A DNA stretch of 64,000 nt from Vallicoccus soli (GTDB lineage: Bacteria > Actinomycetota > Actinomycetes > Motilibacterales > Motilibacteraceae): assembly GCF_003594885.1 (NCBI RefSeq), contig NZ_QZEZ01000001.1, forward strand, positions 62,001-126,000, given 5' to 3'. Within the stretch, counting starts at the first letter, position 1. Each line of letters begins with the position of its first letter. The notes beneath the pieces were generated by a model. It searched no databases. It saw only the letters and a list, made by a program, of their open reading frames with translations, and was not told the origin of the DNA. Made by a program: the position numbers and the translations under genes. Of this stretch, positions 42,072-60,728 are shown piece after piece.

Positions 42072-43067
42072 GTGGGCGCAGCGACCGACGGCGTGGCCGT
42101 CGTCGAGGACGTGCGGGGCACGGCGCTCGACGCGCTGGCCCGCAGCAGGGCGGTGGTGCGGGACGAGGGCGCCTGGGCGGACCCCGCCGCCCTGCGCCGG
42201 GCCGCGGACGGCGCCGCCGTCCTCGTCGTGCGCAACCGCACGCGGGTGGACCGTGCGCTCCTCGAGGACCTGCCCGCGCTGCGGCTGGTGGCGCGCGCGG
42301 GCGTCGGCCTCGACAACATCGACGTCGCCGCGGCCGACGACCTGGGCGTGGTCGTCGCCGCCGCCGCGGGGGCCAACGCGGTGAGCGTCGCGGAGCACGC
42401 GCTCGGGCTCGCGCTCGCCGTCGCGCGCGGCACGGTCGCCTCCGACGCGGCGGTCCGGCGCGGGGCCTGGGACCGGGCGCCCGGCCTGGAGCTCGCCGGC
42501 GGGACCTGGGGCCTGCTCTCGTTCGGGGCGACGGCGCGCGCGACGGGCCGCCTGGCGCGCGCCCTCGGCCTGCAGGTGCTGGCGCACGACCCCCACGTGC
42601 GCGACGACGACCCGGACCTGCGGGCGCTGGGGGCGCGGCTCGTCGGCCTGGAGGAGCTGGCCGCCGGCTCCGACGTGCTGAGCGTGCACGCCCCCGCCAC
42701 GCCGGCCACGCGGCACCTCGTGGGCGCGCCGTTCCTGGCGCGGATGCGGGCCGGGGCGGTGCTCGTCAGCGTCGGGCGCGGCGAGGTCGTCGACGAGGCG
42801 GCCCTGGCCGACGCCCTGCGGCGCGGGCACCTGCGCGGCGCCGGGCTCGACGTCCGCGAGCAGGAGCCGCCGGTGGCGGGTCCGCTGGACGGCCTGCCGG
42901 GCGTGGTGCTCACCCCGCACGTCGCCGGCATCACCGGGGCGGCCCAGGAGCGCGTCGTCGCCGCGCTGTGCCGCGACGCCGAGGCCGTCCTCGGCGGCGG
43001 CGAGGCCCGCGGCGCGGTGGGCCGCCACCGCAGCCCGGCGCGCGGGCGGGTGCCCTCGTGGACGTGA
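42072..43067 (+). CDS. slcC: D-2-hydroxyacid dehydrogenase, likely (S)-sulfolactate dehydrogenase
   Basis: A 331-residue NAD-dependent 2-hydroxyacid dehydrogenase. Catalytic Arg236 (SVGRG) and His283 (TPHVAG) and the LDVREQEPP Glu region are present. The nucleotide-binding glycines are altered: GLLSFGATAR (147-156) keeps only the middle Gly of GxGxxG. In known sulfolactate pathways an SlcC enzyme of this family oxidises (S)-sulfolactate to sulfopyruvate; here the next gene is ComC-like and SuyAB is nearby, so I infer that substrate. GTG start behind the GGTCTGACC operator. Otherwise a phosphoglycerate-dehydrogenase-like enzyme. Confidence 0.75.
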   Translation: MGAATDGVAVVEDVRGTALDALARSRAVVRDEGAWADPAALRRAADGAAVLVVRNRTRVDRALLEDLPALRLVARAGVGLDNIDVAAADDLGVVVAAAAGANAVSVAEHALGLALAVARGTVASDAAVRRGAWDRAPGLELAGGTWGLLSFGATARATGRLARALGLQVLAHDPHVRDDDPDLRALGARLVGLEELAAGSDVLSVHAPATPATRHLVGAPFLARMRAGAVLVSVGRGEVVDEAALADALRRGHLRGAGLDVREQEPPVAGPLDGLPGVVLTPHVAGITGAAQERVVAALCRDAEAVLGGGEARGAVGRHRSPARGRVPSWT

Positions 43068-44089
43068 CCGCGGGGGAGGCGCTCGAGCTCGTGGGCGGGC
43101 TGCTCGTCGACGCCGGCGTGCCGCGCGAGCGGGCCGCGGCGGTCGCGCGCGTGGTGGTGGTGGCCGAGGCCTGGGGGATCGCGAGCCACGGGCTGCAGCG
43201 GGTGCCGACGTACGTCGACCGCACCCTCGCCGGCGGCCACCCGCCGGACGCCGAGCTCGTCGTGGTGCGCGACACGGGCCCGCTGCTGACGCTGGACGGC
43301 GGCGGCGGTCTGGGCCACTGGCAGGTCGCGCACGCCGTCGCCGAGGCGGTGCCGCGGGCGCGGCGGTACGGCGTCGCGCTCGTCGCCGTCGGCGACTCCG
43401 GGCACTGCGGGGCGCTCGGGGTGTACGCCGCGGACGTCGCCGCCGCGGGGCTGGTCGGCCTCGTGCTCTCGTGCGGACCGGCGGCCATGGCGCCGTGGGG
43501 CGGTGCGCGCCCGCTCCTGTCCACCTCGCCGGTGGCCGGGGGCCTGCCGACGAGCGGCGGGCACGCGGTGGTGGACATGGCCCTGAGCACGGTCGCGCGC
43601 GGCACGGTCGCCCGCTACGCGCGCGAGGGCCGGCCGCTGCCGGAGGGGTGGGCGCTCGACGCGCAGGGGCGCCCGACGGCCGACCCGGCCGCCGCGCTGC
43701 ACGGCATGCTCGCCCCCCTGGGCGGGGCCAAGGGGTCCGCGCTCGCGTTCCTGGTCGAGGCGCTGACCGCCGGCCTGGTGGGCCCTTCGCTGTCCGCTGA
43801 CGTGGCCGACTTCTTCGACCCGGCCGCGCACGGGCGCCGCCAGGGGATCGCCCACACCGTCCTCGTCGTCGACCCGGCCGCCACCGACGGGCGCGGGGAC
43901 CCCGCCGGGGCGCGCCGGCGCCTGGACGACCTCGCCGCGCGCACCGTCGAGGCCGGCGGCCGCGTCCCCGGCGCGCGCCGCTCCCGGCCGGACGACCTCG
44001 ACCCCGCCGCGCCGCTCGCGGTCGACGGTGCGCTGTGGCGCGAGCTCCTCGCGCGCCGCGGCGCCGCCCCCGCGGGGCGGCGGCGGTAG
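43064..44089 (+). CDS. comC: Malate/L-lactate dehydrogenase family, likely (R)-sulfolactate dehydrogenase
   Basis: A 341-residue NAD(P)-dependent oxidoreductase of the LDH2/ComC/YlbC fold, distinct from Rossmann dehydrogenases. The family motifs GIASHGLQRVP (catalytic His) and GDSGHCGALG, then LLSTSPVA and GGAKGSALAF, are present. ComC reduces sulfopyruvate to (R)-sulfolactate, the substrate of SuyAB. With the SlcC-like gene it would epimerise sulfolactate via sulfopyruvate. The GTG start (43064) overlaps the previous stop; a GTG two codons earlier is possible. Family alternatives are malate or ureidoglycolate dehydrogenase. Confidence 0.78.
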   Translation: MTAGEALELVGGLLVDAGVPRERAAAVARVVVVAEAWGIASHGLQRVPTYVDRTLAGGHPPDAELVVVRDTGPLLTLDGGGGLGHWQVAHAVAEAVPRARRYGVALVAVGDSGHCGALGVYAADVAAAGLVGLVLSCGPAAMAPWGGARPLLSTSPVAGGLPTSGGHAVVDMALSTVARGTVARYAREGRPLPEGWALDAQGRPTADPAAALHGMLAPLGGAKGSALAFLVEALTAGLVGPSLSADVADFFDPAAHGRRQGIAHTVLVVDPAATDGRGDPAGARRRLDDLAARTVEAGGRVPGARRSRPDDLDPAAPLAVDGALWRELLARRGAAPAGRRR

Positions 44090-44130: not shown

Positions 44131-44877
44131 ATGACCCTTTCGAGCGACGGCGGGTGGCGCCCCCTGGGCGGCTCGCTCAACGGGCGGATCCGCGAGGAGA
44201 TCCTGCGGTTCGTCGAGGCGGGCGGGCTGAGCCCGGGTGAGCGGCTGCCGCCCGAGCGGGAGCTGGCCCTGCTGCTGCGGGTCAGCCGGCCGTCCCTGCG
44301 CGAGGCGCTGCGCGCGCTGCAGGCGGAGGGGCACCTCGTCGTCCGCCACGGGCAGGGCGTGTTCGTCGCCGAGCCGGTCGCGCAGCGCGCGCTGCGCTCG
44401 TCGCTCGCCGACCTCGACCACGACCTGGGGGAGCTCTTCGCCATGCGCGAGGTGCTCGAGGTGCCGGCCGCGCGCTGGGCGGCCGAGCGGGGCGACGAGG
44501 TCGCGCTGGGGCGGGTGCGCGAGGCGTACGAGCGGCTCGACGCCGCGCTCGCGGCGGCGGAGCCGGACGTCGCCGAGGTGCAGGCGCTCGACGCGCTCTT
44601 CCACCTGCGCATCGTGCAGGCCGCGGGCAACGGCCTGCTCGTGCAGACGCAGGGCGTCGTGGACGACCTGCTGCGCACCGGCATGCGCACCACCCTCGCC
44701 GTGCCGGGCCGGGCCCGGCGCTCGCACGAGGAGCACCGGCGGGTCCTCGCCGCGCTGCTGGCGGGCGACGGGCCCGCGGCCGCCCGCGCGGCCCGGGCGC
44801 ACGTGCGCAGCACGCGGGCGGCCGCGGAGCGCCGGCTGCGCGAGCTCGCCGCCCGGGACGCGGCCGCCGCGCGCTGA
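44131..44877 (+). CDS. suyR: FadR-type GntR regulator (candidate SuyR)
   Basis: A 248-residue repressor. N-terminal winged helix (residues about 18-85: LSPGERLPPERELALLLRVSRPSLREALRAL across two helices) and an all-helical FCD ligand domain with metal-binding Asp/His positions (about 110-235). ATG preceded by GAGGAG. FCD regulators bind hydroxyacids; its probable targets are the three GGTCTGACC sites in this window. It lies between the dehydrogenase pair and the sulfo-lyase genes, matching SuyR position in other bacteria. Confidence 0.85.
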   Translation: MTLSSDGGWRPLGGSLNGRIREEILRFVEAGGLSPGERLPPERELALLLRVSRPSLREALRALQAEGHLVVRHGQGVFVAEPVAQRALRSSLADLDHDLGELFAMREVLEVPAARWAAERGDEVALGRVREAYERLDAALAAAEPDVAEVQALDALFHLRIVQAAGNGLLVQTQGVVDDLLRTGMRTTLAVPGRARRSHEEHRRVLAALLAGDGPAAARAARAHVRSTRAAAERRLRELAARDAAAAR

Positions 44878-44922: not shown

Positions 44923-46083
44923 TCAGGCGCTGCGGTAGAGCTTGGTGAGCGTGAACTCGCGGTGGCCCAGCGACTCGGCCGCGGTGAGCCGCCCGTTGAT
45001 CGTGCGCTCCACGAGGTCGATGAGCGCGTCGCCCGCCTCCTCGAGGGTGCGCCGGCGCGACAGCAGGCCGGAGCAGTCCACGTCCACGTGGTCCGCCATG
45101 AGCTGCGCCGTCCGCGGGTTGGCGGTGATCTTGACGACGGGCTGCACGGGGTTGCCGATCACGTTGCCCTGGCCCGTGGGGAACAGGTTCACGACGCCGC
45201 CCGCGGCCGCCATGAGCGTCACGCACTCCGCGGCGGCCGACGAGGTGTCCATGAAGTGCAGGCCCGCCCGGGTGGGGGCCTCGGCCGGGGCGAGCGCCCC
45301 GACGACCGGCGCGGTGCCGGTCTTGACGATGTTGCCCATCGCCTTCTCCTCGATCGTCGACAGGCCGCCGGCGATGTTGCCCTGCGTCGGCTGCGACCCG
45401 AGGAGGTTGGCGCCGGTCGCCTCGATCATCGCGACGTAGTCGTCGTAGAAGGCCTGGAAGCGCGCCCGCACCGCGTCGTCGAGGCACCGCTCCGCGATGA
45501 GGTGCTCGCCGCCGGTGAGCTCGCTCGTCTCGCCGAAGATCATCGTGCCGCCGGCCTCGACCCAGCGGTCGCTGAGGTAGGCCGTGACGCGGCACGACCC
45601 GAGCCCGGTCGTCGTGTCGGACTCGCCGTCCTTGGTCGTCAGCACGATCTCCGCGCGCTCCACGGGCTCGCGCACCAGCTCGCTGGCGTCCTGCAGGTAG
45701 CCCTGGGCCACGCGCGCGGCCCGCTCCACCACCCGCAGGTCGCCCAGCCCCTCGACCGAGAAGCCCTCGACCGGCTTGCCGCTCTTGGCGATGCCGTCGA
45801 CCACCCGCTGGGTCCAGTTCGGCTCGATGCCGATGACGACGACGGCGGCGACGTTCGGGTTCGCGCCGATGCCGATGAGGGTGCGGAACGTCAGCTCGAG
45901 GTCCTCGCCGAACTGCAGGCGGCCGAAGGCGTGGGGGAGCGCCATGGTCCCGGGGACCAGGGCGGCCACGCCCTCCGCGGCGGCGTTGGACAGGTCGTCG
46001 ACCGGCAGGACGACGACGTGGTTGCGGACCCCGACGGCCCCGTTGGCCCGCCGGTAGCCGGTCAGGCGACGCTGGTGTGCCAC
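44923..46083 (-). CDS. suyB: (2R)-sulfolactate sulfo-lyase large subunit (UxaA family)
   Basis: A 386-residue Fe-dependent lyase subunit of the altronate/galactarate dehydratase family. The segments GVRNHVVVLPVDDLSNAA, GTMALPHAFGRLQFGEDLEL and GANPNVAAVVVIGIEP in order are those I associate with SuyB, which cleaves (2R)-sulfolactate to pyruvate and sulfite. FGETSELTGGEH and the Cys/His positions for metal are present. It overlaps suyA by 22 bases. The sulfonate ABC transporter and two sulfolactate dehydrogenase-like genes support SuyB over altronate dehydratase. Confidence 0.85.
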   Translation of the reverse strand: MAHQRRLTGYRRANGAVGVRNHVVVLPVDDLSNAAAEGVAALVPGTMALPHAFGRLQFGEDLELTFRTLIGIGANPNVAAVVVIGIEPNWTQRVVDGIAKSGKPVEGFSVEGLGDLRVVERAARVAQGYLQDASELVREPVERAEIVLTTKDGESDTTTGLGSCRVTAYLSDRWVEAGGTMIFGETSELTGGEHLIAERCLDDAVRARFQAFYDDYVAMIEATGANLLGSQPTQGNIAGGLSTIEEKAMGNIVKTGTAPVVGALAPAEAPTRAGLHFMDTSSAAAECVTLMAAAGGVVNLFPTGQGNVIGNPVQPVVKITANPRTAQLMADHVDVDCSGLLSRRRTLEEAGDALIDLVERTINGRLTAAESLGHREFTLTKLYRSA

Positions 46084-46367
46084 CGGGCGCTCCTCACGTT
46101 GTGGATGTGGACGTGCTCGCCGCGCCGGACGGCGGCGCTGGCCAGGGCGGTGCGGACGCCGTACTCGACGACGTCCTGCCCCGGCTCGAGGTCGGCCAGG
46201 GCGACCTTGTGCCCCAGCGGGACCGGCGTGGTGACGAGGACCTCCTCGTCCGCGGCTCCGTCGAGGAAGCCCACGCGGGCGGGTCCGGGCTCGACGTCGT
46301 GGACCGCGACGGCGACGGCGTCGCCGTGCCGGTGGCCCAGGAAGTCGACGGGGGGTGGTGCGGCCAT
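46062..46367 (-). CDS. suyA: (2R)-sulfolactate sulfo-lyase small subunit (SAF domain)
   Basis: A 101-residue SAF-domain protein, the separate N-terminal piece of UxaA-type dehydratases. LGHKVALADL (51-60), DVVEYG (65-70) and HVHIHN with SARW (85-95) match SuyA. The ATG has AGGAGGAGGAG immediately upstream, and the GGTCTGACC operator lies 25 bases before the start. It heads the suyAB unit, 68 bases after the upstream FAD-TPR gene, and so may have its own regulated promoter as well as read-through. Confidence 0.85.
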   Translation of the reverse strand: MAAPPPVDFLGHRHGDAVAVAVHDVEPGPARVGFLDGAADEEVLVTTPVPLGHKVALADLEPGQDVVEYGVRTALASAAVRRGEHVHIHNVRSARWHTSVA

Positions 46368-46435: not shown

Positions 46436-49210
46436 TCAGGCGCGCTGGGGCGCGGCGGCCAGCGCGAGGAGGCGCCGGTCGTCGGCCGGGGACGGGCGGC
46501 AGGCCAGGCGGTCGGCGAGCAGGCGCGCGGCGTCCCGGCCGCGCCCGCTGCGGGCCAGGCAGAGCAGCAGCGCCTCCTGCAGCGCCTCGCGCTGCGCGGC
46601 CGAGCCGCCGACCCGGTGCAGCACCGGCAGCAGCTCGGTGAGCAGGCCGGCCGCCTCCGCCCAGCGCTCCTCGACGAGGGCGAGCAGCGCCTCGCACACG
46701 TCGGCGACCGTGGTGCGCAGCAGGGGGTCGCGCGCGGCGCGGCAGTGCCGCCGCAGGTCGCGCAGCGCCCCGCCGTCGTGGGCCGCAGCCAGGCCCATGG
46801 CCGCGTGCAGGGCCGTGAAGGGCGTGCGCGGCCGGGCCAGCAGGTCCGGCCCGACCGCGGCCAGCACCTCGCGCACGTCGGGCGCGCCGGTCCCGTCGTC
46901 GGCGACGAGCTGCCAGCGCCAGAGCAGCGACGCCGCGTCGACGAGGGCGCGGACCCCGGTGACCGCGGGGGGCGCGAGCTCGACGGCGTAGCGCCGGCGC
47001 ACCGCCTCGACGTCCCCGAGGGCCAGCTCGTGCAGGGCCGCGTGCCACGAGAAGTGCGCGCGGTGGCTGGCGGAGCGCCCGCTCTGGCGGACCCAGTGGT
47101 CGAGCCACGCGCGGCCCTCCTCGTGCCGCCCGGTCTCGTAGAGGACGTGGGCCTGCGCGTGCACCGCGTGGCCGGAGGACGGCTCGCAGGACAGGGCGCT
47201 CTCGGCGAGCAGCCCGGCCTCCTCGTACCGTCCCTGGTCCTGGCGGGTGAAGGCGAGCAGCGAGATGAACCACCAGTGGTCCCCGTACGCGGGCGCCAGC
47301 CCCTCGAGCAGGTCCCACGCGTCCTGCCGGACGTCCACCAGGCCCGAGAAGGCGATGGTGGGGACGGCGGCGGAGACCGCGAGCACGTCCCGCGGGTAGC
47401 GGGCCACGTGCTCCACCAGCGCGGCGGCCCCGGCGCCGCGGGGGTCGCGCACCCGCAGGCGCACGACCTCCACGAGGCTGCGCTCGCGGTCGTCGCCCCG
47501 CTCGCGCACGGCGCGCCGCGCCGCCTCGAGCGAGGCGGCCACGTCGGCGTCCGCCCCCGCCTCGTGACCGAGCAGCGCCAGGGCGGCGTGGGCCAGGGCG
47601 AAGCCGGGGTCGGTGCGCGTCGCGTGCCGCAGCAGGCCCTCGGCCCCGTCCTGCAGCCGCATCACGCGCTCGAGGCCGGCGGCGTACGCCGCCGCCGCCT
47701 CGGCCGTCGTGGAGACAGGCAGGCCGAGCGGGTCGCGCGGGCGGGCGAGGGGGTGGTGCCCGCCGACGAGGCGGCCGTCGGCCAGCCGCCGGGGGAGCGG
47801 CGCCACGGCGTCGAGGACGCCGGTCGCCAGCGCCAGCGCCTGCGCCCTGATCTCGGGGACGGCCGTGGACTCCCACAGCTCGCCGCGACGCAGCGCGCCG
47901 AGCGCCCAGACGGGCGCGTCCGCCTCCCCCGCGCCGGTCACGAGGCGCCCGTCGACCGTCCGCAGCCCCATGCCGGCGGTCGCCGGCAGCGCCAGGGGGC
48001 CGCCGCCGCGAGGTCGCAGCAGGTCGTCGAGCAAGCGGTTGCCGAGCGTGCGGACGTCCGTGGCCGGACCCGTGCAGTTGACGACCCAGCCGACGTCCAC
48101 CGGGCCCGCTGCGCCGAGCCCGACCCGCAGCCCGCCGCCGGGCAGCGGCTCGGCGCCGGTCACGCGGCCCGCCGACACGTGCAGCGCGCCGCAGGCCCGC
48201 AGGGCGCCCAGCAGCCGGGCGCTCGAGGGCGGCATGCGGTGGCGCAGGACCCCCCACGGGCCGGCGTCGTGCGCCAGCAGCTCCCGGCGCTCGTCCTCGC
48301 CGAGGCGCTGCCACAGCTCGGCCAGCCGGAAGCGGAGCCCGTCCACCCCGGGGCGCCAGTCGCCCGTGCTGCGCGCCACGTCGGCCAGGTGGCGCCGCAC
48401 CGCGTCGCGCAGGCCGGGCAGGTCGGCGGGCCAGTCCGCCACGTCGGGGATCGCCGCGAGCCGGGGCGCCGGGGCGTGGGGGCGCGGGGGGCGCCCGCTG
48501 CGCGACAGCGCGAGCAGGCGTCGCCCGGCGCGCGCCCGGTGCCCGCTCAGCGACAGGACGACGTCGACCATGGTCAGGCCGGTGCCCACGAGCAGGACGT
48601 CGGGCGGGCCGGACCGGTCGCGCGCCACGACGTCGAGGGCGCCGGGCGCCCACGGGTCCGGCACGAGGAAGGCGGAGCGCGCCAGCGCCTCGGGCGCCCA
48701 CCCGGTGCCCGGCGCGGGCAGGCCGGTGGCCACGACCAGCGCGTCGGCCTCGAGGGCGCTGCCGTCCTGCGCGGTCACCGCGACCCCGCGGCCGGTGCGG
48801 TCCACCGCGACGAGCTCCTGGCGCAGGTGCCGCAGGGACACCGCCCCGGACGCGGCGGCGAGCGCCTCGCGCAGCCGGTCGTCGAGGTAGAGGGCGAACT
48901 GCCGGCGCGGGGCGAAGGAGTAGGGGTCGCGCACCCCGTCGCCGTGGCGGGTGCGCCAGGCGACGAAGTCGCCCGGCTCCTCGGGCAGGGCGGTCATGCC
49001 CGAGGCCGGCACGTTGAGCAGGTGCCGGTCGTCGGCCGTCCCGAAGGCGGTGCCGCGGCCCCAGCGGTCGGCGGGGTCCGCGAGCACGAGGTCCAGGCCC
49101 TGCCCTCGCCGCGCCGCGGCCCGGCACAGGTGCAGGGCCACGAGGGTGCCCGCCGCCCCGGCACCGGCCACCACGACCAGGGGGCGACCGCCCCGCCGCA
49201 CGACCGCCAC
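46436..49210 (-). CDS. FAD/NAD(P)-binding oxidoreductase fused to TTC38-like TPR domain
   Basis: A 924-residue protein with two unlike parts in one open frame. Residues 1-470 resemble the FAD-NAD(P)-binding (NAD_binding_9/HpnW-like) family: GAGAAG (16-21), GRGTAFG, HLLNVPASGMTALPEEPGDF, PRRQFALYL, LLVGTGLTMVDVV and WVVNCTGP. Residues about 496-924 begin LPVSTTAEAAAAY and run as helical repeats like the TTC38/TPR proteins of actinobacteria (FALAHAALAL, HAVHAQAHVLYETGRHEEG, HFSWHAALHELALG). No internal start or stop separates them. GTG start with GGAGGAGGAGGAG. It stands between the sulfonate transporter and suyAB; a role in sulfonate oxidation or sulfite handling is only inferred. Confidence 0.82.
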   Translation of the reverse strand: MAVVRRGGRPLVVVAGAGAAGTLVALHLCRAAARRGQGLDLVLADPADRWGRGTAFGTADDRHLLNVPASGMTALPEEPGDFVAWRTRHGDGVRDPYSFAPRRQFALYLDDRLREALAAASGAVSLRHLRQELVAVDRTGRGVAVTAQDGSALEADALVVATGLPAPGTGWAPEALARSAFLVPDPWAPGALDVVARDRSGPPDVLLVGTGLTMVDVVLSLSGHRARAGRRLLALSRSGRPPRPHAPAPRLAAIPDVADWPADLPGLRDAVRRHLADVARSTGDWRPGVDGLRFRLAELWQRLGEDERRELLAHDAGPWGVLRHRMPPSSARLLGALRACGALHVSAGRVTGAEPLPGGGLRVGLGAAGPVDVGWVVNCTGPATDVRTLGNRLLDDLLRPRGGGPLALPATAGMGLRTVDGRLVTGAGEADAPVWALGALRRGELWESTAVPEIRAQALALATGVLDAVAPLPRRLADGRLVGGHHPLARPRDPLGLPVSTTAEAAAAYAAGLERVMRLQDGAEGLLRHATRTDPGFALAHAALALLGHEAGADADVAASLEAARRAVRERGDDRERSLVEVVRLRVRDPRGAGAAALVEHVARYPRDVLAVSAAVPTIAFSGLVDVRQDAWDLLEGLAPAYGDHWWFISLLAFTRQDQGRYEEAGLLAESALSCEPSSGHAVHAQAHVLYETGRHEEGRAWLDHWVRQSGRSASHRAHFSWHAALHELALGDVEAVRRRYAVELAPPAVTGVRALVDAASLLWRWQLVADDGTGAPDVREVLAAVGPDLLARPRTPFTALHAAMGLAAAHDGGALRDLRRHCRAARDPLLRTTVADVCEALLALVEERWAEAAGLLTELLPVLHRVGGSAAQREALQEALLLCLARSGRGRDAARLLADRLACRPSPADDRRLLALAAAPQRA

Positions 49211-49239: not shown

Positions 49240-50238
49240 TCAGCTCGCGCCCTGCGTCGCCTGGTTGTTCAGGAAGAGGTCGTCGGTCGCCGGGACCTCG
49301 CGGATCATGCCGATCGACTGCATGAACTCCGCGAAGGTGCCGAAGCCGGTGGGCTTCGTGGTCCAGCCGACGTCCTCGGCCGTGATCTGCGCCAGCAGCT
49401 CCTGCGCGGTCTGCCCCGTCTCGGCCGCCAGGGTGCGGGCCGCCTCCTCGGGCTGGTCGGTGAGGCGCTCGTTGGCCTCGCGCACCGTCGACACCAGGGC
49501 GTCGACGACCTCGGGGTTGCAGGCGGCGAAGTCGCGCATCGTGTAGGCGCTGTTGAACGTGTGCCGGCCGAAGAGGTCGTAGCTGGACAGCAGCGCGCGC
49601 GCCCCCGCGGCCTCCTCCTGCTCCTGGAAGGGCGGGGCGGTCAGGTGCCCGGCGACCTGCCCGGCCACGAGCGCCTGGACGCCGTCGGGGTGCCCCATGG
49701 CGACGACCTGGCTGTTCAGGGCCGCGGCGTCGCCGAGCTCCTCCTGGGCGCCGCGGCGCAGGACCACCGCCTGGATCGAGTCGGGCGCGGGCACCGCGAT
49801 GCTCCCGGCCCCCCGCAGGTCCTCGAGCGTCCGGATGGCGGGGTCCTGCACCATGAGCTGCAGGCTCATCTCGTTGAGCCCGGTCACGACCTGCCAGTCG
49901 ACGCCCCCGTCGACCCCGACGAGGAACGGGCCGATGCCGCCGGCCCCCACCTGGACGTCGCCGGCGATCATGCCGTCGCGGATGGCCGCGCCCGAGTCGA
50001 GCTGGCGCCACGACACGTCGACGTCGGGCAGCGCCTCCTCGAGCGTCCCCTCCTGCTTGGCGAGCAGGAGCGAGGCGTAGCCGAGGCCCGGCTGGTAGGC
50101 GATGGTCACCTCGTCGGCCGGCTCGCAGCCCGAGCCCGAGCCGGCGGAGGAGCTGGAGCTGCCGCAGCCGGCGAGGCCGACGGCGACGGCGGCGGCGAGG
50201 GCGGCGGCCCCGCGGGAGCGGAGTGTGGTGCGCAGCAT
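49240..50238 (-). CDS. ssuA: Sulfonate-type ABC transporter substrate-binding lipoprotein
   Basis: A 332-residue exported lipoprotein of the SsuA/TauA/NMT1 family. Signal with lipobox LAGC (Cys near residue 25), Ser/Gly linker, then EVTIAYQPGLGYASLLLAKQEG as the N-lobe start and QVGAGGIGPFLVG, VVAMGHPDGVQALVAGQVAGHLT in the hinge and C-lobe. It captures the sulfonate outside the cell for SsuCB. ATG 50238 follows AGAGGCACCC. It is separated from ssuC by a 220-base region holding a palindrome and a decamer minisatellite. Confidence 0.88.
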   Translation of the reverse strand: MLRTTLRSRGAAALAAAVAVGLAGCGSSSSSAGSGSGCEPADEVTIAYQPGLGYASLLLAKQEGTLEEALPDVDVSWRQLDSGAAIRDGMIAGDVQVGAGGIGPFLVGVDGGVDWQVVTGLNEMSLQLMVQDPAIRTLEDLRGAGSIAVPAPDSIQAVVLRRGAQEELGDAAALNSQVVAMGHPDGVQALVAGQVAGHLTAPPFQEQEEAAGARALLSSYDLFGRHTFNSAYTMRDFAACNPEVVDALVSTVREANERLTDQPEEAARTLAAETGQTAQELLAQITAEDVGWTTKPTGFGTFAEFMQSIGMIREVPATDDLFLNNQATQGAS

Positions 50239-50459: not shown

Positions 50460-51314
50460 TCAGGCCCTGCCGGCCATGCCCCAGCGGACGACGGTCCGCC
50501 GCTCCACCAGGGCGAAGAGCAGGTCGAGGGCGATGCCGATGAGGGCGATGGTGACGAGGCCCGCGAAGATCTCGGGGGTGCGCAGGAAGTAGCGCGCGTC
50601 GTTGATGAACCAGCCGAGCCCGCCCCCGCCGCCGGCGACGCCGAAGACCAGCTCGGCGGCGATGATCGTGCGCCAGCCGAAGGCCCAGCCGGTGCGCAGC
50701 CCGCTGAGGATGTGCGGCAGGGCCGCCGGCAGCAGCACGTCGCGCACCATGCGCCAGCCGCGCAGGCCGAGGGTGCGGCCGACGGCGACGAGCGTCGGGT
50801 TGACGGTGCGGAACCCGGTCGTGACGTTGATCGCGATGGGCCACACGACGGCGTTGGCGATGACGACCACCAGCGCCTGCGTGTCCAGGCCCAGCCAGAG
50901 GATGACCAGGGGCAGCACCGCGATCGACGGCAGCGGGTTGAGGATCGAGGTCAGCAGGGCCAGCAGGTCCTCGCCGAGCCGCGTCCAGGTGGCGAGGGTG
51001 GTGAGCACCGCGGCCACCACGGTGCCGATCGCCATGCTCGTGAGGAGCACCTGCAGCGTCAGGACGGTGGCGTCGAGGAGCCGGCCGTCCGCGAAGCCCT
51101 GCGCGAGGGCGCGCGCGACGTCGACCGGTCCGGCCACGAGCAGCGGGTCGACGCCCGAGGCGCTGACGTACAGCTGCCACAGGCCGACCATGGCGACGAG
51201 GAGCGCCGCCCGGCGCGGACCCACCGGCAGCGAGCCCCACCCGCGGCGCCGGCGGGGGGCCCGCGGGAGCGGCCGCGGCACGGCCGGGGTGGTGGTCGTC
51301 ACGGGGGCGCTCAC
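50460..51314 (-). CDS. ssuC: Sulfonate-type ABC transporter permease
   Basis: A 284-residue inner-membrane permease of the SsuC/TauC (BPD_transp_1) family with six helices and the cytoplasmic EAA loop (around GLRGWRMVRDVLLPAALPHIL, in two parts). The GTG start overlaps ssuB stop as GTGA. It forms the channel with SsuB for uptake of the sulfonate bound by SsuA. Confidence 0.9.
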   Translation of the reverse strand: MSAPVTTTTPAVPRPLPRAPRRRRGWGSLPVGPRRAALLVAMVGLWQLYVSASGVDPLLVAGPVDVARALAQGFADGRLLDATVLTLQVLLTSMAIGTVVAAVLTTLATWTRLGEDLLALLTSILNPLPSIAVLPLVILWLGLDTQALVVVIANAVVWPIAINVTTGFRTVNPTLVAVGRTLGLRGWRMVRDVLLPAALPHILSGLRTGWAFGWRTIIAAELVFGVAGGGGGLGWFINDARYFLRTPEIFAGLVTIALIGIALDLLFALVERRTVVRWGMAGRA

Positions 51315-52138
51315 TCGAACCCCAGCCCGGTGGGCTGGTCCTCGTCGCCGGCCAGCAGCGCCCGCAGGCGCGCGGTCGCCGCCCCCGTCGCGGGGTCGGT
51401 CGGGTCGCCGAGCCCGCTGACGTCGAGCTCCTCGACGACCCGCGAGGGGCTGCCGCCGAGGACGACGACGCGGGTCCCCACCTGGACGGCCTCCTGGATG
51501 CTGTGGGTCACGAAGAGGACCGCGACGCCGGTGCGCTCGGCCACCTCGACGAGCTCCGCCTGCAGCCGCGAGCGGGTCTGCGCGTCGAGCGCACCGAAGG
51601 GCTCGTCCATGAGCAGCACCTCGGGGTCCGTGGCCAGGGCCCGGGCGATGGCGACGCGCTGCTTCATCCCGCCCGAGAGCTGGTGGGGGAAGCGGTCGGC
51701 GGCCGCCGTGAGGTGCATGAGCGCGAGGTAGTCCTCGGCGCGGGCGCGCGCCTCGGCCCGCCCGCGCCCGAGGACCCGCTGGGGGTAGGCGATGTTGTCG
51801 CGGACCGTGCGCCAGGGGAACAGCTGGTCGAACTCCTGGAAGACGACGGCACGGTCCGGCCCGGGCCGCAGCGCTCCCCGCCCGCGCAGGGTGATGCTCC
51901 CGTCGAACGGCTCCACGAAGCCCGCGACCGCCTTGAGCAGCGTGGACTTCCCGCAGCCCGACGGCCCCAGGAGCATGGTCCGCTCGCCGCGGCGCACCTC
52001 GAACGAGACGTCCTCGACCGCCACCTGCGGGCGGCCGTCCACGACGTAGCCCACCCGGGCCCGCTCCACGCGGAGCAGCGCCCCTCCGGCGGTCACCGCG
52101 GCGCGCGAGCGCGCCGGGCGCGTCCTCATGCCGATCAT
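51311..52138 (-). CDS. ssuB: Sulfonate-type ABC transporter ATPase
   Basis: A 275-residue ABC ATPase of the nitrate/sulfonate/taurine importer family. Walker A GPSGCGKST, Q-loop VFQEFDQLFPWR, signature LSGGMKQR, Walker B LLMDEPFGALD and switch VTHSIQEAV are all present. ATG 52138 follows GGGAGGACCGCACGG. First gene of the leftward unit ssuB-ssuC-ssuA-FAD/TPR-suyA-suyB. The third GGTCTGACC site lies 144 bases upstream. Confidence 0.92.
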   Translation of the reverse strand: MIGMRTRPARSRAAVTAGGALLRVERARVGYVVDGRPQVAVEDVSFEVRRGERTMLLGPSGCGKSTLLKAVAGFVEPFDGSITLRGRGALRPGPDRAVVFQEFDQLFPWRTVRDNIAYPQRVLGRGRAEARARAEDYLALMHLTAAADRFPHQLSGGMKQRVAIARALATDPEVLLMDEPFGALDAQTRSRLQAELVEVAERTGVAVLFVTHSIQEAVQVGTRVVVLGGSPSRVVEELDVSGLGDPTDPATGAATARLRALLAGDEDQPTGLGFE

Positions 52139-52990: not shown

Positions 52991-53076
52991 GCGCCGAGGA
53001 CGCGGTCGGGCTGGTGCTGGCCGTCCTGCTCGCCGCCTTCCTGCTCGCCGCCCTGCTGCGCCCGGGGGGCGAGTGA
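52987..53076 (+). CDS. kdpF: K+-transporting ATPase small subunit KdpF
   Basis: A 29-residue single-helix peptide ([22 protein letters not shown] in the helix, Pro-Gly tail) matching KdpF, which stabilises the KdpABC complex. GTG start coupled to the preceding microprotein; its TGA overlaps the kdpA ATG by one base. Confidence 0.8.
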
Positions 53077-54737
53077 TGTCCGAGGGCCTCGCCGGCGCCC
53101 TGCAGGTCGCCGTCCTCGTCGCCGCCCTCGCGGCCGTCCACGCGCCGCTCGGCGACGCCATGGCGCGGGTCTTCACCGCGCGCCGCCACCTCGCCGTCGA
53201 GCGGGCGCTCTACCGCGTGGCGCGCGTCGACCCGGGCGCCGACCAGCGCTGGTCGACGTACGCCTTGTCGCTCCTCGGCTTCAGCGCCGCCTCGATCCTC
53301 GCCCTCTACGGGCTGCTGCGCCTGCAGCACCTGCTGCCGCTCTCGCTGGGGCGCGAGGGCGTGCCGCCGGACGGCGCCTTCAACACCGCCGTCTCCTTCG
53401 TCACGAACACCAACTGGCAGTGGTACTCCGGCGAGTCCACGCTCGGGCACCTCGTGCAGGTGGTCGGCCTGACCGTCCAGAACTTCGTCTCGGCGGCCGT
53501 GGGGCTCGCCGTGCTCGTGGCGCTCCTGCGCGGCCTCACCCGCTCGCGCACGGACCGCCTGGGCTGCTTCTGGGTCGACCTGACCCGCGGGTGCGTCCGC
53601 ATCCTCCTGCCGCTGGCCGCCGTGAGCGCGGTCGTGCTCGTCGCGGCCGGCGTGGTGCAGGACCTCGCGGGGCCCGAGGAGGTGCGCACCCTCTCGGGCG
53701 GGACGCAGACCCTGCTGACCGGGCCGGTGGCCTCGCAGGAGGCGATCAAGGAGCTCGGCACCAACGGCGGCGGCTCCTACAACGCCAACTCCGCGCACCC
53801 GTTCGCGTCGCCGAACCCCTTCACCAACCTCCTCGAGGTGTTCCTCCTGCTCCTCGTCCCGAGCGCTCTGCCCCGGACCTTCGGCCGGATGGTCGGCGAC
53901 CGCCGGCAGGGGCTCGCGGTCCTCGGCGTCATGGCCTTCCTCTGGCTGGCGGCGCTCGTCGCCACCACGGCGGCGGAGGTGGCGCACGCCGGCACCGTGC
54001 CGCAGGCGGTCGGCGCCGCGATGGAGGGCAAGGAGGTGCGCTTCGGCGTCCCCGGCTCCGCCCTCTTCGCGGTGTCGACGACCGCGACGTCCACCGGTGC
54101 CGTGAACTCGTTCCACGACTCCTTCACCGCCGCCGGCGGCGGGGTCACGCTGCTCAACATGATGCTCGGGGAGGTGTCGCCGGGCGGCGTGGGCTCCGGC
54201 CTCTACGGGATGCTCGTGCTCGCCGTGCTGGCCGTCTTCCTCGGCGGCCTCATGGTCGGGCGCACCCCGGAGTACCTCGGCAAGAAGATCGGCCGGCGCG
54301 AGATCACGGTGGTGGCGCTCTACGTGCTCGCGACGCCGACGGCCCTGCTCGTCGGGTCGGCGCTCGCGGTGTCCTTCGCCGGCCCCGCGTCCTCGGTCCA
54401 GGACCCCGGTCCCCACGGGCTCACCGAAGTGCTCTACGCCTTCGCCTCGGCGTCCGGCAACAACGGCAGCGCCTTCGCCGGCCTGGCCGTGGCGACCCCG
54501 TTCTGGAACACCGCGCTGGGCCTGGCGATGCTGGTCGGCCGCTTCGTGCCGATCGTCCTCGTCCTCTGCCTGGCCGGCGCCCTCGCCCGCCAGCAGCCGG
54601 TCCCGGCGAGCGCCGGCACCCTGCCGTCGCACCGCCCGCTCTTCGCGGGCCTGCTGACGAGCGTCGTGCTCGTCGTCGCGGCGCTCACGTACGTCCCCGC
54701 CCTCGCGCTGGGCCCGGTCGCCGAGGCGCTCGCATGA
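53076..54737 (+). CDS. kdpA: K+-transporting ATPase subunit A (channel)
   Basis: A 553-residue membrane protein with about ten helices and four selectivity-filter loops: [42 protein letters not shown] and [10 protein letters not shown]. It binds K+ and passes it to KdpB. ATG overlaps kdpF stop. Complete relative to family length of about 555. Confidence 0.97.
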
Positions 54738-54784
54738 GCGCCCGCGGCACCCGGTCTGCCGACCCCACCCCGGAGGCACCTGCC

Positions 54785-56881
54785 ATGACCACCGACGTCG
54801 AGGCCCCCGCGGGCACGGAGCCCGCGCCGGTCGTCGGCGCCGCCGCCCGGCGCCGCGTCGCGGGAGGCGCTTTCCAGCCGCGCGCGCTGTGGGCGGCACT
54901 GCCGCAGGCGGTGCGCAAGCTCGACCCCCGCGACGTCGCCCGCACCCCGGTGCTGCTCGTCGTCGAGGTGGGGGCCGCCGTCACGACCGTCCTCGCGGTG
55001 GTGGACCCGTCCGTCTTCGCCGCGGCGATCGCGCTGTGGCTGTGGGCGACCGTCCTCTTCGCCACCCTCGCCGAGGCCGTCGCCGAGGGCCGCGGCCGCG
55101 CCCAGGCGGCGACGCTGCGCCGCGCCCGGGAGCACACGACCGCCCGCCGCACCACGGGCGAGGTCGTCCCCGCGTCCGAGCTGCGGGCCGGCGACCTGGT
55201 CGTGGTCGAGGCGGGCGAGACGGTCCCCGGGGACGGGGACGTCGTCGAGGGCGCCGCGAGCGTCGACGAGTCGGCCGTGACCGGCGAGTCGGCGCCCGTG
55301 GTCCGCGAGTCCGGCGGCGACCGCTCGGCGGTGACGGGCGGCACCCGCGTCCTCTCCGACCGCATCGTCGTGCGCGTGACGGCCAAGCCGGGGGAGAGCT
55401 TCCTCGACCGGATGATCGGCCTCGTCGAGGGCGCCTCGCGCCAGAAGACCCCGAACGAGGTGGCGCTCGACATCCTGCTGGCCGCGCTGACCCTCGTCTT
55501 CCTCCTCGCGGTCGTCACCCTCCAGCCGCTCGCCACCTGGTCGGGCGAGCCGCAGGCGCTCGTCGTGCTCACGGCGCTGCTCGTCTGCCTGATCCCGACG
55601 ACCATCGGCGCGCTGCTGTCCGCCATCGGCATCGCGGGCATGGACCGGCTCGTGCAGCGCAACGTGCTCGCCATGTCGGGGCGCGCGGTGGAGGCCGCCG
55701 GCGACGTCGACGTGCTGCTGCTCGACAAGACGGGCACCATCACGCTCGGCGACCGGCAGGCGGTCGAGCTGCTCGCGGCACCGGGCGTCGGGGAGGAGGA
55801 GCTCGCCGACGCGGCGCGGCTGTCGAGCCTCGCCGACGAGACGCCGGAGGGCCGCTCGGTCGTCGTGCTGGTCGAGGAGCGCTACGGGCTGCGCGCCACC
55901 GGCCCCGGCGTCGTCGACGGGGCGTCGTTCGTCCCCTTCACCGCGCAGACCCGCATGAGCGGCGTCGACCTGGGCGACCGCCAGGTGCGCAAGGGCGCCG
56001 CGGCCGCCGTGCTGCAGTGGGTCCGCGAGGCCGGGGGCAGCACCCCGACGGAGGTGGGCGGGGCCGTCGACCGCGTCGCGGCCGCCGGCGGCACGCCGCT
56101 GGTCGTCGCCGAGGCGGGGCCCGGGACGACCGCCGGGGCGCGGGTGCTCGGCGTCGTCCACCTCAAGGACGTCGTCAAGCCGGGCATGCGCGAGCGCTTC
56201 GACGAGCTGCGCGCCATGGGCATCCGCACCGTGATGGTCACCGGCGACAACCCGCTGACGGCGCGCGCGATCGCCGCCGAGGCGGGGGTCGACGACGTCC
56301 TGGCCGAGGCGACGCCCGAGGACAAGCTGGCGCTCATCAGGGCCGAGCAGGCCGGCGGGCGGCTCGTGGCGATGACGGGCGACGGCACCAACGACGCGCC
56401 CGCCCTCGCGCAGGCCGACGTCGGCGTCGCGATGGGCACGGGGACGTCGGCCGCCAAGGAGGCCGGCAACATGGTCGACCTCGACAGCGACCCGACGAAG
56501 CTCATCGAGGTCGTGGAGGTCGGGAAGCAGCTGCTCATCACCCGCGGGGCGCTGACCACGTTCTCCATCGCCAACGACGTCGCGAAGTACTTCGCCATCG
56601 TGCCCGCGATGTTCACCGGGCTGTTCCCGCAGCTCGAGGCGCTCGACGTCATGCGCCTCGCGACGCCCGAGTCGGCCATCCTCTCCGCGGTCGTGTTCAA
56701 CGCGCTCGTGATCGTCGGGCTCGTCCCGCTGGCGCTGCGCGGCGTGCGCTACCGCCCGTCGTCCGCCGAGGCGCTGCTGCGGCGCAACCTGCTCGTGTAC
56801 GGCCTCGGCGGCCTCGTCGCGCCCTTCGCCGGCATCAAGCTCATCGACCTGCTCGTCCGCCTCGTCCCCGGGATCGGCTGA
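54785..56881 (+). CDS. kdpB: K+-transporting ATPase subunit B (P-type ATPase)
   Basis: A 698-residue P-type ATPase. Phosphorylated Asp314 in DKTGTIT, VTGES actuator loop, KGAAAAV nucleotide-binding, [10 protein letters not shown] hinge. It drives uptake of K+ at low external K+. Two starts compete: ATG 54734, overlapping the kdpA stop as ATGA, and ATG 54785 with GGAGG eight bases upstream; I favour the second because the intervening codons (TCT, CCT) look less used. Confidence 0.96.
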
Positions 56882-56883
56882 CC

Positions 56884-57498
56884 ATGACCTCGCTCACCGC
56901 CACGCTCGCCGCCCTCGGCCGGCAGTCGCTCGCCGGCCTGCGCGTGCTGCTGCTGCTCACGGTCCTGCTCGGGGTCGCGTACCCGCTCGCCGTCACCGCC
57001 GTCGCGCAGGTCGCGTTCCCGCGGCAGGCGCACGGCTCGATGATCGAGCTCGACGGGCGCACCGTCGGCTCGAGCCTCGTCGGGCAGGCCTTCGAGGGGC
57101 CGGAGTGGTTCCACGGCCGTCCCTCGGCCGCCGGCGACGGGTACGACGCCCTGGCCAGCGGCGCGTCCAACCTCGGCCCGGAGAACCCGGACCTGCTCGC
57201 GGCGGTCGAGGAGCGCCGGGCCGCCGTCGCCGCGCAGGACGGGGTCGACCCCGACGACGTGCCGCCCGACGCCCTCACGGCGTCGGCCAGCGGGCTCGAC
57301 CCGCACGTCTCCCCGGAGTACGCCCGCCAGCAGGCCGACCGCGTCGCGTCCGCCCGGGGGCTCGACCCCGCGGAGGTCCGCGGCCTCGTCGAGGAGCACG
57401 TGCAGGGTCGTACGCTCGGCGTCCTGGGAGCGCCCCGCGTCAACGTCCTCGAGCTCAACGTCGCGCTCGAGCGGCGGTCCGGCGCGGGGGAGCCGTGA
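56884..57498 (+). CDS. kdpC: K+-transporting ATPase subunit C
   Basis: A 204-residue periplasm-facing subunit with one N-terminal helix (about residues 17-38) and the conserved QAFEGPEWFHGRPS, GASNLGPENPDL and HVSPEYA...RVA segments. It assembles and tunes KdpAB. Starts two bases after the kdpB stop. Confidence 0.95.
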   Translation: MTSLTATLAALGRQSLAGLRVLLLLTVLLGVAYPLAVTAVAQVAFPRQAHGSMIELDGRTVGSSLVGQAFEGPEWFHGRPSAAGDGYDALASGASNLGPENPDLLAAVEERRAAVAAQDGVDPDDVPPDALTASASGLDPHVSPEYARQQADRVASARGLDPAEVRGLVEEHVQGRTLGVLGAPRVNVLELNVALERRSGAGEP

Positions 57499-57516
57499 GC
57501 GCCGGAGGGGGCTGAG

Positions 57517-60050
57517 GTGCGCAGGGGCAGGCTGCGGGTCTACCTCGGGGCGGCGCCGGGGGTCGGCAAGACGTACCGGATGCTCGGCGAGGCGCACCGG
57601 CGGGCCGAGCGGGGCACCGACGTGGTCGTCGCGCTCGTCGAGACCCACGGGCGGCGGCGCACCGCCGCGATGGTCGAGGGGCTGGAGGTCGTCCCGCGCA
57701 GGGTCGTCGTGCACCGGGGCGTCGAGCTCGGCGAGCTCGACGTGGACGCCGTCCTCGCCCGCCGACCCGAGGTCGCCCTCGTCGACGAGCTCGCCCACAC
57801 CAACGCGCCCGGCAGCCGGCACGAGAAGCGCTGGCAGGACGTCGAGGACCTCCTCGCCGCGGGGATCGACGTGATCTCCACGGTCAACATCCAGCACCTC
57901 GCGTCGCTGACCGACGTCGTCGCGTCGATCACCGGGGTGCGCCAGCAGGAGACGGTGCCCGACGAGGTGGTGCGCCGGGCCGACCAGGTCGAGCTCGTCG
58001 ACATGACGCCGGAGGCGCTGCGGCGGCGGCTGGCCCACGGCAACGTCTACGCGGGCGAGACGGTCGACGCGGCGCTCGCGCAGTGGTTCCGCCCGGGCAA
58101 CCTCACCGCCCTGCGCGAGCTCGCGCTGCTGTGGCTCGCCGACCGGGTGGACGACGCCCTCGAGGCGTACCGCGCCGAGCGGGGGATCGCCGCGACGTGG
58201 CCGGCCCGGGAGCGCGTGGTCGTCGCGCTGACGGGCGGGCCGGAGGGCGAGACGCTCGTACGGCGCGCCGCCCGCATCGCCCGCCGCGGCGCGGGCGGTG
58301 AGCTGCTGGCCGTGCACGTCGTGCGCGACGACGGCATCGCGGGGGCGGCGCCGGGGGCGCTCGCCGCGCAGCGCCGGCTGGTCGAGGAGCTCGGCGGCAG
58401 CTTCCACGCGGTGGTCGGGGACGACGTCGCCGACGCGGTGCTGGACTTCGCCCGCGGCGTCAACGCGTCGCTGCTCGTCCTCGGCGTGAGCCGCCGGCGC
58501 CGCCTCTCGGTGGCCCTGCGGCCCGGTGCCGGGGAGCGGGTGATCCAGGGGTCGGGCGCGATGGACGTCCACGTGGTGACGCACGAGCGGGCCGGGAGCC
58601 GCCGGCGCCGCGCGCCGCGCCGCGACCCGCTCGGCCGTCGCCGCAGGGTCGCGGGCTGGGTGCTCGCGCTCGCCGGCCCCGCCGCCCTCGCCGCCGTGCT
58701 CCTCGCGACGCAGGACCTGCACAGCCTGCCGACCGAGCTCATGCTCTTCCTGACCCTGACGGTCGTCGTGGCGCTGGTCGGCGGGCTGTGGCCGGCCGTC
58801 GCCGGCGCCGTCGTGGGCAGCCTGCTCGTCAACTTCCTCTTCACCCCGCCGGTGCGCACCTGGACCGTCGCCGACCCGGAGAACGCCTTCGCGCTCGGGG
58901 TGTTCGTCGCGGTCGCCGTGGCCGTCGCCTCGGTGGTGGACCTCGCCGCCCGGCGCTCGGCCCAGGCCTCGCGCGCCCGGGCGGAGGCCGAGACCCTCTC
59001 GCTGCTCGCCGGCAGCGTGCTGCGCGGCGAGGTCGGGGTGGACGCCGTGCTGGCCCGGCTGCGCGAGACCTTCGCGGTGCGCTCGGTGAGCCTGCTCGAG
59101 CGCGACGACGAGCGCAGCCCGTGGCGCTGCGTCCGGTCCAGCGGGGCCGGGCCCTGCGCCGCCCCGGAGGAGGGCGACGCGGAGATCGTGGTCTCCCCGC
59201 GGCTGGCGCTCGCCCTGCAGGGGCGGGTGCTGGCGGCGGGCGACCGGCGGGTGCTCGAGGCCTTCGCGGCGCACGCGGCGACGGCGCTGGAGCGCGAGCG
59301 CCTGGCCGCGGACGCCGCGCGGGCGCAGGAGCTCGAGGAGGGCAACAGCATCCGCTCGGCGCTGCTGGCGGCGGTCTCGCACGACCTGCGCACCCCGCTC
59401 GCGACGAGCCGCGCCGCCGTGAGCAGCCTGCTGCAGCAGGACGTCGCCTTCAGCCCCGAGGACGAGCGCGCCCTGCTCTCCACCGTCGACGAGGCGACGT
59501 CCCGGCTCGAGCGGCTCATCGACGACCTGCTCGACGTGTCGCGCATCGAGGCGGACGCGGTGCGGGTGCGGCTGCGCCCCGCCAGCCTCGACGAGGTGCT
59601 GCCGGGGGCGCTCGCGGCGGTCCCGCCGGGGGCGGTCGAGGTCGACGCCCCCGAGGACCTGCCGCTGGTGAGCACGGACCCCGGCCTCGTGGAGCGCGCG
59701 CTGGCCAACGTGGTGGAGAACGCGGTGCGGCACGCCCCGCGCGGCTCGCGGGTGCGGGTCTCCGCGGCCGTGGTCCCCGCCCCGGGCGGGCCGGTCGTGC
59801 AGGTGCGCGTCGTGGACCGGGGTCCAGGGGTCCCCGACGAGGACAAGCCGGCGATGTTCCGGCCGTTCCAGCGCCTGGGCGACGCCCCCGCGGGCGCCGG
59901 GACCGGCCTCGGGCTCGCCGTCGCGCGCGGCTTCCTCGACGCGGTCGGCGCCCGGGTCGCCGCCGAGGACACCCCGGGGGGTGGGCTGACCATGGTCGTC
60001 GACCTGCCGCTGGACGGGGCCGGGGCCCCCGCGGCCGCCGGGGCGGGCGC

Positions 60051-60054
<4 letters not shown>
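57517..60054 (+). CDS. kdpD: Sensor histidine kinase KdpD
   Basis: An 845-residue sensor. N-terminal KdpD domain with Walker A GAAPGVGKT (11-19) and LVDELAHTNAPG; a USP-like domain (about 225-360); four helices (about 385-480); GAF-like region; histidine kinase with phosphoacceptor H622 in SHDLRTPLA, N box VVENAVRHAPRGS and G boxes DRGPGVP, GTGLGLAV. It senses K+ need and turgor and phosphorylates KdpE. GTG start 18 bases after kdpC; overlaps kdpE by 4 bases. Confidence 0.96.

Positions 60055-60728
<674 letters not shown>

Follow-up and report, generated by a model that had tools for sequence, protein, structure and literature searches.

For the flavoprotein described here, the closest described system is FzmM, an L-aspartate N-hydroxylase among the class B flavin monooxygenases, in which an Arg-rich helical domain binds both aspartate and sulfate, Asn62 faces the flavin and Arg13 contacts aspartate (PMC10404684). 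The protein's second half resembles TTC38, the human form of which is a repeatedly observed target of panobinostat (PMC6885700, PMC9118197). In the literature searched, we found nothing on the function of PF13454, COG4529, YdhS or bacterial TTC38, and no description of an FAD-TTC38 fusion. We analyzed a 64,000-nucleotide stretch of the Vallicoccus soli genome (contig NZ_QZEZ01000001.1, positions 62,001 to 126,000), here called the window, which encodes a two-domain protein made of a PF13454 FAD/NAD(P)-binding half and a TTC38-like TPR-superhelix half. We take the latter to belong to the TTC38/StaR-like family, for which Pfam contains no model, with human TTC38 as a presumed homologue. The gene and its parts are as follows.

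46436..49210, minus strand: fusion gene, 924 aa, GTG start at 49210, preceded by GAGGAGGAGGAGG
47786..49210, minus strand: FzmM-like flavin-monooxygenase half, residues 1-475, with PF13454 at 13-163
46439..47752, minus strand: TTC38-like TPR-superhelix half, residues 487-924
46805..47161, minus strand: putative active site H684xxxH688 / H719xxWH723 / D758 / R765 / H802, on successive predicted helices

The first-pass annotation had described a single frame joining an HpnW-like FAD/NAD(P)-binding domain to helical TPR repeats with no internal start. The 924 codons are indeed uninterrupted, with coding-type codon bias through the junction; analysis of codon-position GC gave a GC3 of 0.96-1.0 in every 100-codon slice, junction included. 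A strong Shine-Dalgarno run lies upstream of the GTG start, and the plus-strand frame over the same interval was rejected as a gene. The statement about internal starts needs qualifying: in-frame Met codons are present, for instance M413 and M517, although homologues are continuous through the junction. Both halves were confirmed, whereas the HpnW label did not survive, as no match to TIGR03364 was found in NCBIfam at E<=10; HpnW, which that model defines, is a DAO-type flavoprotein (PMC11203657). A sample of 394 genomes from the class contained full-length fusions in 33 genomes besides the host, at 40-69% identity. There are 21 named fusion loci, with carriers in Nocardioides, Mumia, Aeromicrobium, Marmoricola and Kineosporia. 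The fusion is also present on Streptomyces plasmids, under no more specific RefSeq name than 'FAD/NAD(P)-binding protein'. Because the fusion recurs in this many genomes and loci, it is real and a sequencing artefact or frameshift can be dismissed. The fusion is common, and both halves have known folds. Within the host, a whole-genome search matched the full fusion once only, and a profile search of the genome returned it as the sole PF13454 gene.

The N-terminal half is a member of PF13454 (NAD_binding_9), matching it over residues 13-163 (E 9e-34, 117.1 bits against a cut-off of 21.8). A 37-sequence profile of this half retrieved FzmM (8cp2) at E 4.7e-14, and FzmM was also the top Foldseek match of the AlphaFold2 model, followed by PvdA and SidA. 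The structure models were built on alignments of 21 sequences and are of middling confidence; in the full-length model, pLDDT falls under 50 at 53-79 and 437-477, around the flavin site. Ranked by Z, the best VIA matches include reductases for thioredoxin and bacillithiol disulfide, at Z 16-18 across about 280 residues. Since folds with two dinucleotide-binding domains are common, these Z values fail to split the classes, and as modeled the fold alone cannot separate an oxygenase from a reductase. The model does show the architecture of class B flavin monooxygenases, with the GxGxxG motif for FAD (G16-G21), a second dinucleotide motif (V205-D216) and the helices 264-340 of the predicted substrate domain. 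Within this helical insert (about 264-340), W285, R286, D290, R293, W300, W319, R323, H324 and R325 are invariant, and together with E447/R455 they are kept in fusions and FAD-only relatives alike. By analogy with FzmM, these residues suggest an anion-binding pocket at the insert, the profile leaving the two inserts unaligned. FzmM Asn62 aligns with the invariant N66 and Trp51 with F56. The aspartate-binding Arg13 aligns with Ala20, which rules out an L-aspartate N-hydroxylase. No CxxC redox pair was seen among the invariant residues of this half. The redox role proposed for the protein is thus well supported, the relatives found by both fold and profile being class B flavin monooxygenases.

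The second half gave weak TPR profile matches only. It models as a TPR superhelix (pTM 0.71), and its PDB matches are generic TPR folds, which is no proof of a unique fold. Its place among TTC38-like proteins comes instead from full-length similarity to stand-alone members that carry the same HxxxH/HxxWH/D/R/H/GGSxAQR signature, which appears undescribed in the literature searched. Across 69 sequences, 18 positions are near-invariant; four of them are His in two HxxxH pairs (H684/H688 and H719/H723), and the set also includes D608, W722, R765 and part of GGSxAQR. These residues stay invariant when stand-alone proteins from Proteobacteria are aligned, as do D758 and H802. H681, E692, H696 and H727 are shared by the fusion and closely related stand-alone proteins, whereas the more distant actinobacterial ones do not conserve them. 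At the level of sequence, the conserved residues suggest that this half is more than a scaffold and has a catalytic pocket, which may bind metal. A shared His pocket in the inner groove of the superhelix is plausible in the model, because the residues lie on successive predicted helices, where TPR proteins form that groove. Panobinostat is a metal-chelating hydroxamate, and its binding to human TTC38 would, indirectly and by analogy, fit a metal site. Stand-alone TTC38-like genes adjoin regulators and MFS transporters, a setting that resembles those of small catabolic or detoxification enzymes; close stand-alone genes in Nocardioides adjoin uvrC, which is uninformative. In Tardibacter and Paraburkholderia, a stand-alone TTC38-like gene is flanked by genes for an MFS transporter and a divergent HTH regulator (L178:3752-7238 and L182:3663-7297), an arrangement that suggests a small metabolic or efflux module.

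The genes around the fusion are the following.

42072..43067, plus strand: SlcC-like D-2-hydroxyacid dehydrogenase
43058..44089, plus strand: ComC-like (Ldh_2) dehydrogenase, best NCBIfam match L-sulfolactate dehydrogenase, below cut-off
44131..44877, plus strand: GntR/FCD regulator
44923..46083, minus strand: SuyB-like large subunit (GD_AH_C), 386 aa, with an 82% identical homologue elsewhere
46062..46367, minus strand: SuyA-like small subunit, 101 aa, 68 nt downstream of the fusion stop
49240..50238, minus strand: ABC substrate-binding protein, SsuA/TauA/NMT1-like, ending 29 nt before the fusion start
50460..51314, minus strand: ABC permease, SsuC/TauC-like
51311..52138, minus strand: ABC ATPase, TauB/SaoA-like

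The fusion gene had been placed between sulfonate import and suyAB genes, and this position is borne out: on one side is an ABC importer from the SsuA/TauA/NMT1 superfamily, on the other are suyAB-like genes. The co-directional run reads ABC ATPase, permease, binding protein, fusion, SuyA-like, SuyB-like, with the GntR, ComC-like and SlcC-like genes divergent from it. No terminator-like site was found between the binding-protein, fusion and suyA genes, in a scan that is weak in DNA of 78% GC, and the fusion gene is probably co-transcribed with the importer and suyAB. Because the binding protein scores 101 bits, below the SsuA-family cut-off of 163.5, we only infer that the importer is specific for sulfonate. 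Likewise, no NCBIfam model for SuyAB matched the suyAB genes over cut-off; we assign them provisionally on the basis of the split 101/386-aa subunits and of the company that such genes keep at ten other loci, where SlcC and ComC are constant and GntR is present in nearly all. The window cassette presumably corresponds to the published racemase-type slcC-comC-suyAB sulfolactate cassette. Two further features of the region were recorded. Close relatives of the binding protein (49240-50238, minus strand) are few, in 4 other genomes of the 394 at E<=1e-20, and one of them (L154) adjoins an SsuD-like monooxygenase, an FMN reductase and a flavin reductase. At 53076-60728 on the plus strand, KdpA (553 aa) is followed by genes whose sizes suit the remainder of a kdp operon (698, 204, 845 and 225 aa), an ordinary arrangement in which KdpA alone was tested.

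A dedicated role for the fusion in the SuyAB/sulfolactate pathway, for instance yielding sulfopyruvate or sulfolactate from an imported sulfonate, would suit the tight co-directional spacing and the absence of any other PF13454 gene in the genome. The comparison with other genomes points away from it. Neither the fusion nor the window-type importer was found in any of the ten other SuyA-SuyB-SlcC-ComC(-GntR) cassettes, which rules the fusion out as a core gene of the cassette; among the fusions sampled, the window copy alone adjoins suyAB, and nearly all others lie away from it. Five genomes of the host order were compared: the fusion occurs in the window host alone, two sister genomes carry an FAD-only gene, and neither fusion nor SuyB was found in the host-order relatives. 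In a FastTree phylogeny of the FAD half, in which deep supports are low, the window copy falls among Nocardioidaceae sequences. Its absence from order-level relatives and its nesting among Nocardioidaceae make the association with suyAB look like a recent juxtaposition, and we regard a dedicated SuyAB-pathway step as very improbable. The host probably gained the fusion gene laterally, to judge by this tree. The same tree nests FAD-only genes among fusions, so the TTC38 half would have been lost or gained several times and thus appears dispensable to the FAD half. Recurrent neighbors of the fusion (a CLC channel, a spermine-synthase fold, a metallophosphatase) share no common theme, and a 163-aa cluster that recurs beside it in some Nocardioides proved to be DUF520 and is probably incidental. 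As to the cassette itself, L141, L142, L144, L145 and L147 are compact suyAB-slcC-comC-gntR cassettes in one family of the class whose genomes are very small (1.3-1.9 Mb); streamlined actinobacteria may thus commonly use sulfolactate.

Beyond suyAB, the FAD module seems to be tied more broadly to organosulfur assimilation. Sulfur markers were found at 5 of 16 FAD-only actinobacterial loci and 6 of 40 fusion loci, compared with 0/17 random regions and 0/22 TTC38-only loci, the last two sets being pooled as controls (n=39). Against this small control set (0/39), the FAD-only loci gave p 0.001, and the fusions p 0.026, or 0.055 without the two query-donor loci. In Nocardioidaceae, fusions or FAD-only genes adjoin SsuA-like transporters, NtaA/DmoA monooxygenases and flavin reductases. 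Further examples, those on plasmids being hand-picked and outside the marker test, extend past the actinobacteria. In R. etli, the FAD-module gene is divergent from tauABC, with TauA over its cut-off; in Shinella and Acidisoma, the module adjoins sulfate-transport (sulfate ABC) and cysDNQ genes, in each case along with an Rrf2 regulator; and in Nostoc sp. UHCC 0302 its gene is last in an ssuA-ssuD-ssuC-ssuB run. No sulfur gene was seen near the module at the Azospirillum, Methylomagnum, Sphingomonas and Gluconobacter plasmid loci, and most fusion loci have no recognizable sulfur neighbor. In both Nostoc plasmids, the partner fused to the module is a persulfide dioxygenase domain of ETHE1 type, again under the RefSeq label 'FAD/NAD(P)-binding protein' only; in N. 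edaphicum, the match of this domain to the human persulfide dioxygenase ETHE1 has an E of 1.9e-62.

L094:7917-10226: FAD module-ETHE1-type fusion, Nostoc edaphicum plasmid pNe_5
L123:6001-8286: FAD module-ETHE1-type fusion, directly after ssuA-ssuD-ssuC-ssuB

The first-pass annotation had suggested from position a redox step on a sulfonate, or sulfite handling, to be abandoned if fusions lay only outside sulfonate loci. That condition does not hold outright: organosulfur clusters contain a small number of the fusions (N. gilvus, N. phosphati, N. insulae), and most fusions lie elsewhere. The idea gains from the general sulfur link of the FAD module, whereas a step in the SuyAB pathway, as read from position, is weakened.

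Our preferred reading, at a probability of roughly 0.4, is that the two domains of the fusion form an oxidase that acts on a small anionic compound, either organosulfur or amino. The N-terminal half would bind FAD and NAD(P)H, to judge by its fold and sequence, and would use O2 in the manner of FzmM and SidA to oxygenate N or S of a small anionic substrate held by the conserved Arg/Trp-rich helical insert. The product may then pass to the TTC38-like half, as its conservation suggests, where the invariant His/Asp/Arg pocket on the inner helices of the superhelix would probably bind a metal and run a second reaction, be it further oxidation, hydrolysis or elimination. In the window, the probable co-transcription with the importer and suyAB makes an imported organosulfur compound the probable substrate, whose product would enter sulfur (or sulfolactate) metabolism; elsewhere, the same enzyme would work without suyAB. 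The comparisons themselves show the fusion and how widely it occurs, its kinship with FzmM, the conserved residues and the genomic contexts; the oxygenase chemistry of the flavin, the metal, the reaction order and the substrate are what we infer from them. In a bolder version, which we consider quite improbable, TTC38/StaR-like proteins at large are unrecognized metal-dependent TPR-superhelix enzymes and the fusion joins flavin monooxygenase and metal site so that one chain carries out two oxidations in succession; for the window, a candidate reaction is the oxidative deamination of cysteate to sulfopyruvate for ComC/SlcC and SuyAB. Cysteate is the sulfonate analogue of aspartate, and its choice is speculation by analogy, from the substrate of FzmM and the neighboring sulfopyruvate and sulfolactate enzymes.

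Other divisions of labor between the halves were weighed against the two-domain oxidase. The FAD half could be the whole enzyme and the TTC38 half a non-catalytic scaffold or docking arm, for example for a flavin or sulfur-carrier partner. This fits a generic superhelix that best matches proteins which serve as scaffolds or bind peptides, and it fits the FAD-only versions found in many genomes and interleaved with fusions in the tree. Five His with Asp, Arg, Trp and GGSxAQR kept from Proteobacteria to Actinobacteria, however, exceed what TPR packing needs, and stand-alone TTC38 forms sit in metabolic-looking modules, so a purely docking arm seems to us rather unlikely. Alternatively, there may be no oxygenase at all, the FAD half supplying the C-terminal half with electrons as an NAD(P)H-dependent reductase of flavin or of disulfides/persulfides. 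The reductases among the top VIA matches and the Nostoc relative joined to a persulfide dioxygenase speak for such an enzyme, but invariant residues without a CxxC pair, along with profile and Foldseek rankings that favor FzmM and the N-hydroxylases, make it distinctly unlikely.

Taken together, these comparisons set the window fusion beside several known systems. FzmM (PDB 8cp2/8cp5), the best solved relative of the FAD half by profile and by fold, likewise has FAD and NAD(P) Rossmann domains with a helical domain between them and a flavin-facing Asn (N62/N66). In contrast, identity is about 21-25%, the insert spans about 75 residues in the window protein and 184 in FzmM, Ala20 stands where FzmM has Arg13, and FzmM has no TTC38 half. 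The E. coli YdhS group ('FAD/NAD(P)-binding protein') has PF13454 in common with the fusion, and most plasmid-borne PF13454 members were found without a C-terminal extension. The slcC-comC-suyAB cassette is complete beside the window fusion, with SuyA, SuyB, SlcC, ComC and GntR all present, whereas elsewhere it occurs without fusion or window importer. Stand-alone TTC38/StaR-like bacterial proteins, 420-500 aa long, correspond to the C-terminal half over its full length and carry its His/Asp/Arg/GGSxAQR signature, but no flavoprotein is fused to them. TTC38 is an uncharacterized family that reaches humans, where it is an off-target of the HDAC drug panobinostat, and a bacterial member covalently joined to a redox enzyme and bearing an invariant His pocket makes TTC38 chemistry directly testable. 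Lastly, the Nostoc fusion (P0004, pNe_5) carries an FAD module about 30% identical to that of the window, with an ETHE1-type metallo-beta-lactamase-fold dioxygenase as partner where the window has TTC38; this separate fusion, beside or inside an ssu gene set, hints at a flavoenzyme of organosulfur assimilation that is as yet undescribed.
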